DNA from: Pirellulales bacterium
GTDB taxonomy: Bacteria; Planctomycetota; Planctomycetia; Pirellulales; JALHPA01
Reading direction: 5' to 3'
Length of the DNA: 64,000 nt
NCBI GenBank assembly: GCA_033762255.1
Contig: JANRLT010000006.1
Location: 1-64,000, forward strand
Positions 43,956 through 61,458 of this stretch are shown here, one piece after another (position 1 is the stretch's first letter; the number at the start of each line of letters is the position of its first letter). The translations under genes were made by a program, and so were the position numbers. The notes beneath the pieces were generated by a model, which worked only from the letters and a program-made list of their open reading frames with translations, was not told the origin of the DNA and made no database searches.

Positions 43956-44102
43956 TTCTTGCGCCGCCCACCCTCTCCCTGCCTGCCAAGTGCTGTCTAT
44001 GATAATGTTTTGACCCGGAAATTCTTTCCGGGCAATGACTCCTGCGGGCATTCAACATCCGGGCAACAGCATTTTTTCCGGCTAAATTGTGGTACAGTGG
44101 CC

Positions 44103-57251: not shown

Positions 57252-60200
57252 ATGAGCATTACAACGGAAATGCATCGCGACTTACTGCCAGGCTCTTTTT
57301 TTGGTCCCTCCAACCTGGTGGATTTGCTTCAACACCGGGCGATGCACCAGGGGCATGATCGGGCCTATACGTTTTTAGTCGATGGTGAAAACGAAGAGTT
57401 ACATTTGACCTATCGCGAGTTGGACCGCCAGGCTCGTGCGATAGGGGCCAGATTGCAGGCGGAAGGCTACACGGGAGAGCGGGCGATCCTGTTGTATCCC
57501 GCCGGGTTGGATTTTATCGCGGCATTTTTTGGCTGTTTGTATGCGGGGGTGGTGGCTGTTCCAGCCTATCCCCCGCGGCGTAATCGCAATCTCCAGCGTA
57601 TCCAGGGAATTAGCGTCGATGCCCAGGCCCGCGTAGCCCTGACTAACCAGGAAACCCTGAACCGCACGTTGGATATTTTGGATGAAACGCCCCACCTGCG
57701 GCAAATGAAATGGCTGGCCACCGATCAATTGGAACCCAATGGTGAAAAGTCATGGCAAAAGCCCCTCGTTAATGGGCAAAGCCTGGCTTTTTTGCAGTAT
57801 ACCAGCGGCTCGACGGGATCGCCCAAGGGGGTGGTGCTGACGCATTCAAATTTGCTGCATAATTCGGCGTTGATTAGCTATGCCTTTGAACATACCCGCA
57901 GCGAGGTGGGGATGTTTTGGCTGCCATGTTATCACGACATGGGCTTGATTGGCGGAATATTGCAACCGCTGTACGCGGGCCAACCGAATGTGTTGATGTC
58001 GCCGGTTCATTTCTTGACAAAGCCCTTTCGTTGGTTGCAGGCTATCTCGCGTTATCGGGCCACCATTAGCGGAGGACCGAATTTTGCGTATGACCTCTGC
58101 CTCAAAAAAGTCTCGCCGCAGCAGCGGGACACGCTGGATTTAAGTTATTGGCGATTGGCCTTTAATGGCGCCGAACCGGTTCGCGAAAACACGCTGGAGG
58201 CCTTTGCCCGGTTTTTTGGGCCTTGTGGTTTTCGGCGGGAGGCGTTTTATCCCTGCTATGGCATGGCCGAGAACACGCTGATCGTCAGCGGTGGATTTCG
58301 GGCCAAGCCCCCCGTGGTCCGTTATTATGACACCAAGGGGCTTGAGCGGCATCAAATCATCGAAGCCGCGCAGGATGATCCCCATAGCCGCCCCCTGGTG
58401 GGCTGTGGTGGACACCTGCTCGATGAAGAGATTGTCATTGCCAATCCGCAGACCTTGGCCCGCTGCCAGCCGGATGAAGTGGGGGAGGTTTGGGTGGCGG
58501 GGCCTAGCGTCGCGCAGGGGTATTGGAATCAACCAGAGTTATCGCGGCAGATCTTTCAAGCGCGACTCAGCGATTCGGGCCGAGGGCCGTATTTGCGCAC
58601 GGGGGACATGGGATTTTTGCGCGATGGCGAGCTGTTCATTACCGGGCGGCTTAAGGACATGCTGATTTTTAATGGCGTCAATCATTATCCCCAGGATATC
58701 GAAGAGACATTGGAAATCTGCCATCCCGATTTAAAGGCGGGGGCTTGCGCCGCTTTTGCCATGGAACGTGACGGCCGGGAAGCGCTGATGATCGTCGTGG
58801 AAATCGAACGAGGCAAGCATCGCGGCGTGGAGACATTTCAGCCCTTATACGCCGCCATGCAAAGCGCGATCGCGGTCAAACACGAACTACCCGTCAGCGG
58901 AATTATTTTGATCAAGGCGGGGAGCATCCCCAAGACCAGCAGCGGTAAAATTCAACGCCATGCCTGCAAGGGCGCGCTGGTCGAAGGATCGCTGGAAATC
59001 ATCGATCAATGGTGGTCCGGACAGTCGCACGCTCCACAGAATCGCGACGATGGGCAATTCCGCGCGCTTCCCTCTGAAGCCGGGGATTTGGTGTTGGATG
59101 CCTGCGGATTTCAAATGAATGGCCAGCATAGCTTTGGCCAGCAAGCCCCGACCCCCCCGCACGCGCAGAATCATCGGGACGAATCCGCGGGGCGGGACCA
59201 TTTGGGCATGGCACGGGGTCATTCATCCGCCGCAAAGAGCGGCGCCGCCGCGGCGGCATCCGCCGGCGGGGACTATACCGAAAATGTCGCTAAAATCGTT
59301 TTTGAACAAGTTCGCCGCGTCGCCAAGGAACGGGCCGGGGCGTTGACCCTGGATACCAATATCTTGGAATTGGGATTGGATTCCATTGAACGGATGGAAA
59401 TTGTCTCTTCGTTGGAGGATATCTTTGGCGGACGCTTTCCCGAGGCGGTCCTTACCCAAATGGAAACCTGCGGCGAAGTGGTCCGCGGCATCGAACAATA
59501 TCTGGGAAAAACACCCCGCCAAAAAGGGGCGGCCGCCGCCGAAATTCCCCCCGAAGCTTACAATTTTGAACTCTACCCCGAATACCTGGCCCTTAAGCAG
59601 AACATGGCCAATATCGCCGCCGCCGGGGTGATGAATCCCTATTTTAAACAGCATGAACGGATCACCAACGACACCACGCTGATCAATGGCCGCGAGCTGA
59701 TCAATTGGTCCAGCTACAATTATTTGGGCATGTCCGGTGATCCCGTCGTGCGGCAGGCCGCCCAAGCCGCCATCGACCAATATGGGACCAGCGTGTCGGC
59801 CAGCCGGTTGGTATCGGGTGAAAAACCCCTTCACCGGGAGTTGGAACAATTTATCGCCCGCTTTGTGGGGGTGGAAGACGCGATCGTATATGTGGGGGGG
59901 CATTCGACCAACGAGACCACCATTGGCCATTTGCTGGGTCCGGGGGACTTGGTCCTGCATGATTCGCTGGCGCACAACAGCATTATCCAGGGTTGCCTGC
60001 TTAGCGGCGCGCGGCGTAGGCCTTTTCCCCATAATGACTGGCAGGCGTTGGCCCGGTTGCTCGCGGATTTGCGGGGGGATTACCGCCGGGTGCTGATTGT
60101 GATCGAGGGAGTGTATAGCATGGATGGCGATTACCCGGCCTTGCCCGAGTTTGTCCGCCTCAAGCAACAACACAAATGCTTTTTGATGGTGGATGAGGCC

Positions 60201-60833
60201 CACTCCGCCGGCACGATGGGCTCACAGGGACGCGGGATCGCACAGCATTTCGGGCTGGATCCACGGGAAATCGATATTTGGATGGGGACCCTCAGCAAGT
60301 CCTACGGCAGTTGTGGCGGTTATATCGCGGGATCGCGGGCGTTGGTGGAGTATCTGAAGTACACATCACCGGGATTTGTGTACAGCGTGGGTATTTCGCC
60401 GCCGAATGCCGCCGCGGCGCTGGCCGCGATGCGGCTGCTGACCGCCGAACCCCAACGGGTGGCCCGCTTGCATGCCAATGCGCGGCTCTTTTTGCACTTG
60501 GCCCAGGCGGCGGGGTTGAATACCGGTTCCAGCCAGGATTCGCCGGTGGTGCCGGTGATCCTGGGCAATTCGTTGCATTGTCTGCGGTTGTCGCAGGCGC
60601 TGTTTCAACAAGGGATCAATGTGCAGCCGATCTTGTACCCCGCTGTCGAAGAAAGCGCGGCGCGGCTGCGGTTTTTTATCACGTCGCTGCATAGCGAGGC
60701 CCAAATTCGCCGCACCGTGCAGGCGGTGGGTGAGACTTTAGGGCAAATCGATCCCCGCCATCTCCACCAGGCCCCCACCCGCTTGCCCGCCACCCGTGGT
60801 CCCCAGGTGGCCGTGGGAGGGAAAGACGCCTAA
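57252..60833 (+). CDS. Fusion: fatty acyl-AMP ligase - acyl carrier protein - alpha-oxoamine synthase
   Basis: 1193 residues, three enzymes in one chain. Residues 1-588 form a fatty acyl-AMP ligase: FLQYTSGSTGSPKGVVLTHS, the FAAL-type WLPCYHDMGLIGGILQPLY, YGMAENTLI, YLRTGDMGFL, KTSSGKIQR. A 90-residue Ala/Gly/His-rich linker precedes a carrier domain (about 675-755) with the phosphopantetheine serine in LGLDSIERME (Ser711). Residues 770-1175 are a PLP enzyme of the KBL/SPT/BioF group: NWSSYNYLGMSGD, VDEAHSAGTMGSQG and the Schiff-base Lys1016 in GTLSKSYGSCGGY. The chain should activate a fatty acid, load its own carrier and condense it with an amino acid, losing CO2, to a 2-amino ketone. Product unknown. 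Confidence 0.92.
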   Translation: MSITTEMHRDLLPGSFFGPSNLVDLLQHRAMHQGHDRAYTFLVDGENEELHLTYRELDRQARAIGARLQAEGYTGERAILLYPAGLDFIAAFFGCLYAGVVAVPAYPPRRNRNLQRIQGISVDAQARVALTNQETLNRTLDILDETPHLRQMKWLATDQLEPNGEKSWQKPLVNGQSLAFLQYTSGSTGSPKGVVLTHSNLLHNSALISYAFEHTRSEVGMFWLPCYHDMGLIGGILQPLYAGQPNVLMSPVHFLTKPFRWLQAISRYRATISGGPNFAYDLCLKKVSPQQRDTLDLSYWRLAFNGAEPVRENTLEAFARFFGPCGFRREAFYPCYGMAENTLIVSGGFRAKPPVVRYYDTKGLERHQIIEAAQDDPHSRPLVGCGGHLLDEEIVIANPQTLARCQPDEVGEVWVAGPSVAQGYWNQPELSRQIFQARLSDSGRGPYLRTGDMGFLRDGELFITGRLKDMLIFNGVNHYPQDIEETLEICHPDLKAGACAAFAMERDGREALMIVVEIERGKHRGVETFQPLYAAMQSAIAVKHELPVSGIILIKAGSIPKTSSGKIQRHACKGALVEGSLEIIDQWWSGQSHAPQNRDDGQFRALPSEAGDLVLDACGFQMNGQHSFGQQAPTPPHAQNHRDESAGRDHLGMARGHSSAAKSGAAAAASAGGDYTENVAKIVFEQVRRVAKERAGALTLDTNILELGLDSIERMEIVSSLEDIFGGRFPEAVLTQMETCGEVVRGIEQYLGKTPRQKGAAAAEIPPEAYNFELYPEYLALKQNMANIAAAGVMNPYFKQHERITNDTTLINGRELINWSSYNYLGMSGDPVVRQAAQAAIDQYGTSVSASRLVSGEKPLHRELEQFIARFVGVEDAIVYVGGHSTNETTIGHLLGPGDLVLHDSLAHNSIIQGCLLSGARRRPFPHNDWQALARLLADLRGDYRRVLIVIEGVYSMDGDYPALPEFVRLKQQHKCFLMVDEAHSAGTMGSQGRGIAQHFGLDPREIDIWMGTLSKSYGSCGGYIAGSRALVEYLKYTSPGFVYSVGISPPNAAAALAAMRLLTAEPQRVARLHANARLFLHLAQAAGLNTGSSQDSPVVPVILGNSLHCLRLSQALFQQGINVQPILYPAVEESAARLRFFITSLHSEAQIRRTVQAVGETLGQIDPRHLHQAPTRLPATRGPQVAVGGKDA

Positions 60834-60972: not shown

Positions 60973-61458
60973 TTGGCGAATGTTCCCGTGTCCGCCGTTA
61001 CTAGTTCGCATCGCTTGATCCTGCCGGCGGATGCCAATCATCATGGCACGCTGTACGCCGGATCGTTATTGCGGCTGGCATTGGAGTCGGCCTATGCCAC
61101 CTCCGCCCGGGCCGTGGGGCAGGGGGCTAACTTGCTGTTAAGGCGAGTGCTAAATCTGGAGTGTTATCGCCCGGTCAATGTGGGGGAGATTGTCGAAATC
61201 CGGGGCCTCCCCCTGCATATCGCCCGCGCGTATATGGTGGTAGGTCTGATCGGCGCGCCGGGGGCCCACCATAACAGCCCCTGGATGGATGGCCTGATGG
61301 GTTTTGTGCAAGTGGACGCCGAGGGTCGACTGTGCGAATTTCCGCAGGAATTATCATTGCCCAAGGCAGGTGCCGAATGGCAGCCGCTGCAAGAGCGCAT
61401 GCAGCGACTCTTAAAAATTCGTGTACGCAACGGTAAAAAAGTGAGCGGCGAGTGGTGA
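60973..61458 (+). CDS. Hotdog-fold acyl-CoA thioesterase
   Basis: 161 residues with TTG 60973, or 156 with GTG 60988; neither has a good ribosome-binding site. The hotdog signature is clear: RLILPADANHHGTLYAGSLLRLALESAYATSARAVG, spread over the helix and the Asn-His active-site turn, then LECYRPVNVGEIVEIRG and a final WMDGLMGFVQVD. Relatives hydrolyse acyl-CoA or acyl-ACP. It lies 139 bases after the FAAL fusion, with a poor -35 and TATGAT at 60916-60921. It may release stalled acyl groups from the fusion's carrier or recycle CoA esters (inference). The next gene overlaps its stop by GTGA. Confidence 0.8.
   Translation: MANVPVSAVTSSHRLILPADANHHGTLYAGSLLRLALESAYATSARAVGQGANLLLRRVLNLECYRPVNVGEIVEIRGLPLHIARAYMVVGLIGAPGAHHNSPWMDGLMGFVQVDAEGRLCEFPQELSLPKAGAEWQPLQERMQRLLKIRVRNGKKVSGEW

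Follow-up and report, generated by a model that had tools for sequence, protein, structure and literature searches.

Sphingolipids are best known from animals and plants, and eukaryotic serine palmitoyltransferase (SPT) is a membrane heterodimer of LCB2 and LCB1 that uses acyl-CoA. In the bacterial AasR-AcpR-Spt system (Caulobacter, E. coli B), SPT preferentially uses acyl-AcpR (PMC9386255). The ceramide cluster of E. coli B also includes the N-acyltransferase YghO, and the same paper names the yghO, fatty acyl-AMP ligase (FAAL), epimerase, acyl carrier protein (ACP) and spt genes aca, aasR, epi, acpR and spt, respectively. A second arrangement is found in Pseudomonas fluorescens MYb115, in which a polyketide synthase (PKS) is paired with an alpha-oxoamine synthase (AOS), PfSgaB, an SPT that forms 3-ketodihydrosphinganine with a near-exclusive preference for L-serine (PMC12134224). 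Here we describe a 1193-residue protein of a Pirellulales bacterium that carries FAAL, ACP and AOS domains on one chain. Its gene lies in the window, which covers the initial 64 kb of contig JANRLT010000006.1 (134 kb), from an assembly of 5.47 Mb (96.6% complete, 0.14% contamination). The target of the Planctomycetes 16S probe Pla46 is matched exactly in 8 of 10 genomes tried, including that of the window; the two without it belong to family f22. Judged from sequence, the one-chain protein is probably an SPT and, across most of the order, the entry point to sphingolipid synthesis. Pirellulales seem to begin this pathway with one protein joining three enzymes that are separate in the best-studied bacteria.

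Each of the described systems shares some features with the one-chain protein. AasR-AcpR-Spt combines the same three activities, and a YghO (aca) homologue co-occurs with the one-chain gene as well. However, the AasR-AcpR-Spt activities lie on separate genes; we found yghO, FAAL, epimerase, ACP and spt together in E. coli BL21(DE3), the last four as adjacent genes, in agreement with an earlier note on this DNA, which held that bacterial sphingolipid systems use separate genes (also PMC9386255). Additionally, the FAAL and AOS domains of the one-chain protein are 33% and 36% identical to those of E. coli B, and its AOS lies on another branch of the SPT superclade. Direct fusion from a rhodobacterial aasR-acpR-spt operon is unsupported given these identities and this branching. 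The FAAL domain is also nearer to cyanobacterial FAALs of the PKS and nonribosomal peptide synthetase (NRPS) type (up to 58% identity) than to E. coli AasR (33%). As a separate observation, FAAL, ACP and SPT-like genes lie in a row on the conjugative IncP plasmid pDCB2 of Diaphorobacter sp. JS3051 (L207:1919-5176). The AOS of pDCB2 groups with E. coli B SPT (97/90); a mobile plasmid here bears an operon for starting sphingolipids.

The SgaA/SgaB pair resembles the one-chain protein in that an AOS dependent on pyridoxal phosphate (PLP) is fed by a carrier-bound acyl chain. In SgaAB a PKS builds the chain, whereas the FAAL of the one-chain protein would activate a fatty acid that is already complete, as part of the same polypeptide. 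An AOS beside a PKS is also the arrangement of plasmid genes from the clade of the one-chain AOS: in a plasmid collection, Pseudomonas, Paraburkholderia and Caballeronia carry same-clade AOS genes (52-57% identity) next to a type I PKS or one gene away from it. A rhizobial AOS likewise sits behind a 2513-residue type I PKS. PfSgaB is linked to these genes by arrangement and taxon and not by the PfSgaB sequence. Eukaryotic LCB2/SPTLC2 is both the best sequence match among solved structures and the nearest known branch (two LCB2 rows), but has no fused FAAL or ACP.

The domain layout itself is already in print. In 2013, Milano and co-workers listed an A-CP-PLP2 layout, the same as that of the one-chain protein, for A3ZWL3 of Blastopirellula marina and A1ZVW4 of Microscilla marina (PMC3870968, Table 2), and the novelty of the architecture was overstated in the earlier note. 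By taxon and layout, A3ZWL3 is probably an orthologue of the one-chain protein. In the excerpted listing its product and cluster type are unknown, SPT is named as the nearest enzyme of the domain group, and no link to ceramide is made (PMC3870968). Our literature search found neither the function, the order-wide spread nor the ceramide link in print, and no paper on sphingolipids of Pirellulales isolates turned up among the titles and abstract openings listed. A term search of a 2025 FAAL review found no occurrence of aminotransferase, oxoamine or pyridoxal (PMC11837247).

The one-chain gene is an uninterrupted open reading frame (ORF) starting at an ATG (Table 1). Pfam assigns AMP-binding to residues 27-425 (5.7e-68), AMP-dom_DIP2-like, a C-terminal AMP domain, to residues 469-586, PP-binding (36.5 bits against a cut-off of 20.8) to the carrier and Aminotran_1_2 to the PLP domain, all of which exceed curated cut-offs. 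The ligase domain is kin to characterized FAALs of solved structure (7r7e, 2.7e-197; 3kxw, 3.1e-146; FadD32, 5.8e-97), and among the models listed the one-chain protein reached the cut-off of no named FAAL family model. We aligned 46 one-chain proteins: 41 from the order, one from another family of the same class (L169) and four from family f51. This set shows no variation at Asp710-Ser711 or at the ligase lysines of A8 and A10, while several ligase motif positions are altered in the four f51 proteins. Lys1016 and His908 are kept in 44 of the 46, and the frame is no product of chance. The earlier note had read the chain as a FAAL, a carrier and a KBL/SPT-type PLP enzyme, and the frame, the domain calls and these residues bear it out; the motifs that it named (WLPCYHDMGLIGG, TSSGKIQR, GLDSIERM with Ser711, and Lys1016) were all found at the places it gave.

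Table 1. Features of the one-chain gene and its product (positions in the window; aa, residues of the protein).
Feature	Position	Strand	Basis
One-chain FAAL-ACP-AOS gene (predicted SPT), 1193 aa	57252..60833	+	ORF, Pfam, homologues
Fatty acyl-AMP ligase domain, aa 27-586	57330..59009	+	Pfam; best solved FAAL 7r7e, E 2.7e-197
Ligase motifs: WLPCYHDMGLIGG aa 223-235, RTGD aa 449-452, TSSGKIQR aa 562-569		+	Motif positions
Ligase-carrier linker, aa 588-684	59013..59303	+	Span separating both domains
Acyl carrier domain, aa 685-745	59304..59486	+	PF00550, 6.1e-09
Ser711, predicted phosphopantetheine site, in GLDSIERM aa 708-715	59382..59384	+	Ser in 46/46 homologues aligned
AOS (SPT-type PLP) domain, aa 815-1158	59694..60725	+	PF00155, 6.9e-52; trees; structure model
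His908, aligns with SpSPT His159	59973..59975	+	Alignment
DEAHS aa 981-985 (Asp981 = SpSPT Asp231, His984 = His234)	60192..60206	+	Alignment
Lys1016, PLP Schiff-base lysine, in GTLSKSYG aa 1012-1019, aligns with SpSPT Lys265	60297..60299	+	Alignment
Arg1140, aligns with SpSPT Arg390; Arg in all 68 aligned rows	60669..60671	+	Alignment

In the mechanism we propose, the FAAL domain would use ATP to convert a free long-chain fatty acid to acyl-AMP, and the acyl group would then pass to the in-cis carrier, onto the phosphopantetheine arm of Ser711. The PLP domain at the C-terminus, probably dimeric as its kin are, would hold PLP through Lys1016 and form an external aldimine with L-serine. Condensation of L-serine with the carrier-bound acyl group would give a long-chain base of the 3-ketosphinganine type, with release of CO2. 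This base would then be N-acylated by a YghO/bCerS-like N-acyltransferase, whose gene lies elsewhere in the genome, leading towards a ceramide-type lipid. Fatty acid activation, in-cis carrier loading and decarboxylative condensation with an amino acid, as put forward in the earlier note, are supported by the sequence; this chemistry is probably right, and the product is predicted. What the sequences show directly is that three domains are present with their catalytic residues, that the PLP domain lies on the SPT side of the phylogeny, that the gene is conserved in most of the order, and that it co-occurs and is partly syntenic with YghO. We infer that serine is the substrate, that channelling is covalent and that N-acylation follows, as well as the chain length of the fatty acid, the end product and which reductase acts.

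To place the PLP domain, we built three trees of AOS domains with 68, 55 and 47 rows. The second and third trees dropped rows of the first for speed or because of long branches, including one BioF and two order sequences (G042 and G053) which fall inside the one-chain clade in the first tree. One-chain, PKS-borne and rhizobial AOS domains form a single clade (98/98, 100/99 and 100/99 in the three trees). The nearest known neighbour of this clade is eukaryotic LCB2 (100/97 in the first tree and 99/97 in the other two, with two LCB2 rows). Bacterial SPTs join next, and the resulting SPT superclade is split from KBL, BioF and ALAS at 99/97, 100/98 and 98/96. By sequence, the best solved relatives of the PLP domain are human SPTLC2 (3.1e-71) and Arabidopsis LCB2a, followed by a thermostable AOS (8s1y, 7poa) and then bacterial SPT and KBL.

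The top-scoring NCBIfam model for the PLP domain is bioF (356.3 bits against a cut-off of 426.45), which is what one would cite for a BioF- or KBL-type enzyme of biotin or threonine metabolism in disguise. This explanation is largely refuted, and we give it hardly any weight. A clade forced with BioF was rejected (p-AU 0.00444), and the PLP domain is fused to a FAAL and a carrier. The KBL/glycine C-acetyltransferase models stayed below their cut-offs (PRK06939, 308.9/460 bits; TIGR01822, 254.4/493 bits). Additionally, the same genome has separate BioF (contig C23) and KBL (contig C14) genes that pass their own NCBIfam cut-offs, so both jobs are already taken. No match to E. coli bioA, bioB, bioC or bioD was found at 1e-3 in the window, in three further loci of the same genome or beside its own BioF, in a search that had no positive control. 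The biotin reading is thus rejected on the tree and the separate BioF gene; the combination that the earlier note had named as telling against its view, a PLP domain within BioF and a biotin operon nearby, was not what we found in the window.

The residues of the PLP domain also resemble those of SPT. In the alignment to SpSPT, the PLP-binding lysine, the stacking histidine, the PLP-site Asp and His and the conserved arginine of the SPT class are all present. Four positions, Tyr822, Ser985, Met1011 and Ala1131, have residues common to LCB2 and/or bacterial SPT that differ from most KBL, BioF and ALAS rows. At Ser985, within DEAHS, Ser predominates in LCB2 and bacterial SPT, against Ala or Gly in KBL, BioF and ALAS. 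Of the products suggested in the earlier note, a sphingoid base is favored by the SPT superclade, the SPT-type residues and the co-occurrence with YghO. A sulfonolipid is not favored by the scores: among solved AOS structures, the two cysteate acyltransferases listed, 7u7h and 28eh, scored 178 and 168 bits, against 191-244 for catalytic SPTs (SPTLC2, 244). A signal of the CqsA/LqsA kind found no support, as the alpha-hydroxyketone synthase model NF005526 gave 159.7 of the 428 bits of its cut-off.

The one-chain gene is widespread in the order. Among 57 order genomes, 46 have the one-chain protein, two have fragments (G028 and G039, the latter with only a ligase fragment) and nine have none. 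In a class-wide draw of 297 genomes, the ACP-AOS part was matched at 1e-110 in 79, comprising 75 of 82 genomes of the order and 4 of 215 others. A draw of 294 genomes across the phylum gave 13 matches, five of them in the order. Of the remaining matches, four are one-chain proteins from family f51, which lies outside the class; these distant relatives (L156, L157, L158 and L159) are 43-48% identical over the ACP-AOS part and have altered ligase motifs. The named relatives found in a contig search are for the most part AOS genes, from Rhizobiaceae and other groups, that either stand alone or are PKS-borne. A first scan of contigs gave AOS and FAAL kin and, among 32 loci, no full one-chain protein, but it required exact short peptide patterns and is not evidence of absence.

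Several individual loci were also noted. A genome from another family of the class (G256) has a one-chain gene that falls inside the clade of the order (L169, on the 5.8-kb contig C205), with no YghO; this may reflect contamination or transfer. In two genomes of family f16, a same-clade AOS ends a polypeptide of about 2550-2590 residues (L160:3419-11083 and L173:1790-9547), with PKS domains confirmed in L160, and both genomes also carry the one-chain FAAL version. A record titled Klebsiella pneumoniae (L040, CAMAXZ010000009.1) has a same-clade AOS in a 2056-residue frame at 71.5% GC, and its species label looks wrong. In two genomes of one genus (L098:254-3961 in G042 and L100:8015-11782 in G053), the ligase and carrier are intact and the PLP domain lacks the Schiff-base lysine and the stacking histidine. 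These proteins may be loaders only, or dead partner subunits as in LCB1.

The presence of the one-chain gene closely follows that of YghO. With E. coli YghO as the query at 1e-6, 49 of the 57 order genomes gave a match, and nearly all of them contain a full-length homologue (31-39% identity). The eight genomes without YghO (G003, G006, G013, G038, G041, G050, G055 and G056) were also negative with the window genome's own YghO as the query at 1e-6. The nine genomes without the one-chain gene are these eight and G002. The two genes therefore agree in 56 of 57 genomes (48 with both, none with the one-chain gene only, one with YghO only and eight with neither; Fisher p 5.4e-9, or 3.9e-7 on the 51 better genomes). 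The two fragment genomes were counted as carriers here, and excluding both gives p 7.4e-9. In G002 a stand-alone SPT-like AOS adjoins YghO; counting either kind of SPT, a count made after seeing G002, the agreement becomes 57 of 57 (p 6e-10). As a control lipid gene we used the cyclopropane synthase from the window, which occurs in 22 of the 57 genomes and shows no positive link, and if anything a weakly negative one (odds ratio 0.25, p 0.07 against the one-chain gene; 0.16, p 0.045 against YghO). All 77 YghO carriers of the class draw belong to the order, whose 82 genomes divide into 74 with both genes, one with ACP-AOS only (G145), three with YghO only (G002, G039 and G053) and four with neither.

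A stand-alone SPT-like AOS lies directly beside YghO in six of the 57 genomes (G002, G020, G030, G036, G037 and G045; L182, L191, L194, L195, L196 and L197). The stand-alone AOS domains of YghO loci group weakly with bacterial SPTs (88/67, 80/58).

Gene order gives partial support for the link with YghO. In G029, YghO is the gene next to the one-chain gene. The window genome has YghO homologues on contigs C34 and C7, and on C34 YghO precedes BBP7 porin-like, TraB-like and AP-endonuclease-like genes. We compared neighbourhoods at 38 of the 41 order loci, several of them cut by contig ends. In 11 of the 38, relatives of the TraB-like gene, the AP-endonuclease-like gene or both lie close by, upstream of the one-chain gene in L097 and downstream of it in the other 10. 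The presence of these relatives suggests that YghO and the one-chain gene were once in a shared locus. Otherwise, the neighbours of the one-chain gene are variable, and no family occurs in more than 17 of the 38 loci.

These neighbourhoods bear on whether the acyl aminoketone instead serves as an intermediate in making a natural product, or as a CAI-1-kind signal, and not for a membrane lipid. FAAL and AOS domains of this kind are known in PKS/NRPS lines, the FAAL domain is on the PKS/NRPS side of the comparison with AasR given above, and the sphingolipids made by SgaAB are likewise classed as secondary metabolites (PMC12134224). However, the one-chain gene is present in most genomes of the order and is linked to YghO, its annotated neighbour families (only part of them are annotated) include none of the PKS/NRPS kind, and the low alpha-hydroxyketone synthase score argues against such a signal. 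We regard a secondary-metabolite starter as quite improbable.

A number of results weigh against the one-chain protein being an SPT of ceramide synthesis. The SPT equivalog models of NCBIfam scored far under their cut-offs (NF047600, 314.8/640 bits; NF047599, 279.3/500 bits), NF047603 reached 220.4 of 670 bits on the whole protein, and the bioF model came out on top. The trees hold two LCB2 rows, no LCB1 and no cysteate acyltransferase. AlphaFold modelling of the AOS domain (stretch 59550-60770, 19 sequences) gave a mean pLDDT of 89.4, and the fold search fits the whole AOS family without discrimination (Z 50.7 for S. multivorum SPT versus 49.7 for KBL). SpSPT Arg378 corresponds to Leu in the one-chain protein (also Leu in E. 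coli B SPT, and Gly in LCB2). The G042 and G053 PLP domains have lost Lys1016 and His908, yet YghO is retained. SPT likeness alone can mislead, as the cyanobacterial AOS Npun_R3567, chosen for its SPT likeness, gave no 3-ketosphinganine in E. coli (PMC8895605). At the genus level the co-occurrence has p 4e-5 (a hand tally) and rests on four genera lacking both genes, and the class-wide agreement mostly reflects shared ancestry, the genomes not being independent. The gene occurs without YghO in G145 of the order and in G256. YghO was found in none of the four f51 one-chain genomes (59-85% complete), many genomes have several YghO copies (up to 6 matches), and the function of YghO in planctomycetes is itself one that we infer. 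Additionally, a homologue of epi, the E. coli ceramide reductase and part of the AasR-AcpR-Spt system, was found in none of the 57 order genomes at 1e-30, in a search with no positive control.

Some of these points would also fit a one-chain AOS of the same mechanism that uses glycine, alanine or another amino acid and makes a 1-deoxy base, an aminoketone or another non-N-acylated lipid. Indeed, its PLP domain is on a branch separate from the bacterial SPTs proper, the equivalog scores fall short, and YghO is missing from the f51 genomes and from six of seven other same-clade AOS carriers tried outside the order, the seventh (G423) having a weak partial match. In contrast, PfSgaB, which gene arrangement marks as the closest characterized relative, has a nearly exclusive preference for L-serine. 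Moreover, at Ser985 and Ala1131 the one-chain protein has the residues that predominate in LCB2 and bacterial SPT but not in KBL, BioF or ALAS, and YghO co-occurs with the gene within the order. We consider another amino acid substrate unlikely, and an SPT the probable identity of the one-chain protein.

The spread through the order of an apparent one-protein start of sphingolipid synthesis points to production of these lipids in most of the group. A previous screen of the Black Sea inferred sphingolipid potential for 138 Planctomycetota metagenome-assembled genomes from SPT similarity at E <= 1e-70 (PMC11334938). E. coli B SPT matches the one-chain AOS at 194 bits, for which we estimate an E of about 1e-48 at the database size of that screen. 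An E. coli B SPT query at 1e-70 would thus miss the one-chain kind, and closer queries might not. More tentatively, nearly the whole of Pirellulales might make sphingolipids as a standing part of the cell through a single-polypeptide, free-fatty-acid-fed SPT that cut-offs as strict as that of the published screen may miss, with the FAAL- and PKS-fed lineage, and not the well-studied bacterial SPTs, as the closest bacterial relatives of the eukaryotic SPT catalytic subunit. If the SPT reading is true, a widespread planctomycete group makes sphingolipids by a one-chain enzyme. The kinship with LCB2 bears on the origin of eukaryotic SPT, and a three-in-one SPT, if soluble, would be handy for studies of acyl hand-over.

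Within the window, the one-chain gene has no clear operon partner, and the upstream Lnt and MoeA-like genes are on the opposite strand. No RNA family reached its gathering score in the window, and promoter-like sites were at chance level (3 vs 3.3). Terminator-like sites numbered 14 against 6.7 in shuffles (sd 2.4), the majority falling within the coding region. Behind the gene, a 161-residue ORF with a TTG start (60973-61458, + strand) has no Pfam or NCBIfam match, and its relatives come after the one-chain gene in L075 and L094. Around YghO, a cytochrome P450 gene, a possible lipid hydroxylase, lies near the homologue on contig C34 of the window genome, on the same strand (L181:6321-9540). 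In four loci of family f16 (L185, L186, L193 and L199), YghO sits behind three genes that recur in all four. In L185, two of the three encode an FtsX-type permease and an HlyD-type adaptor and may belong to a lipid exporter. Lastly, FAD amine oxidase-like, DUF1365 and cyclopropane synthase-like genes stand in a row at 43959-48004 (+ strand) of the window, likely a cluster for fatty-acid modification.

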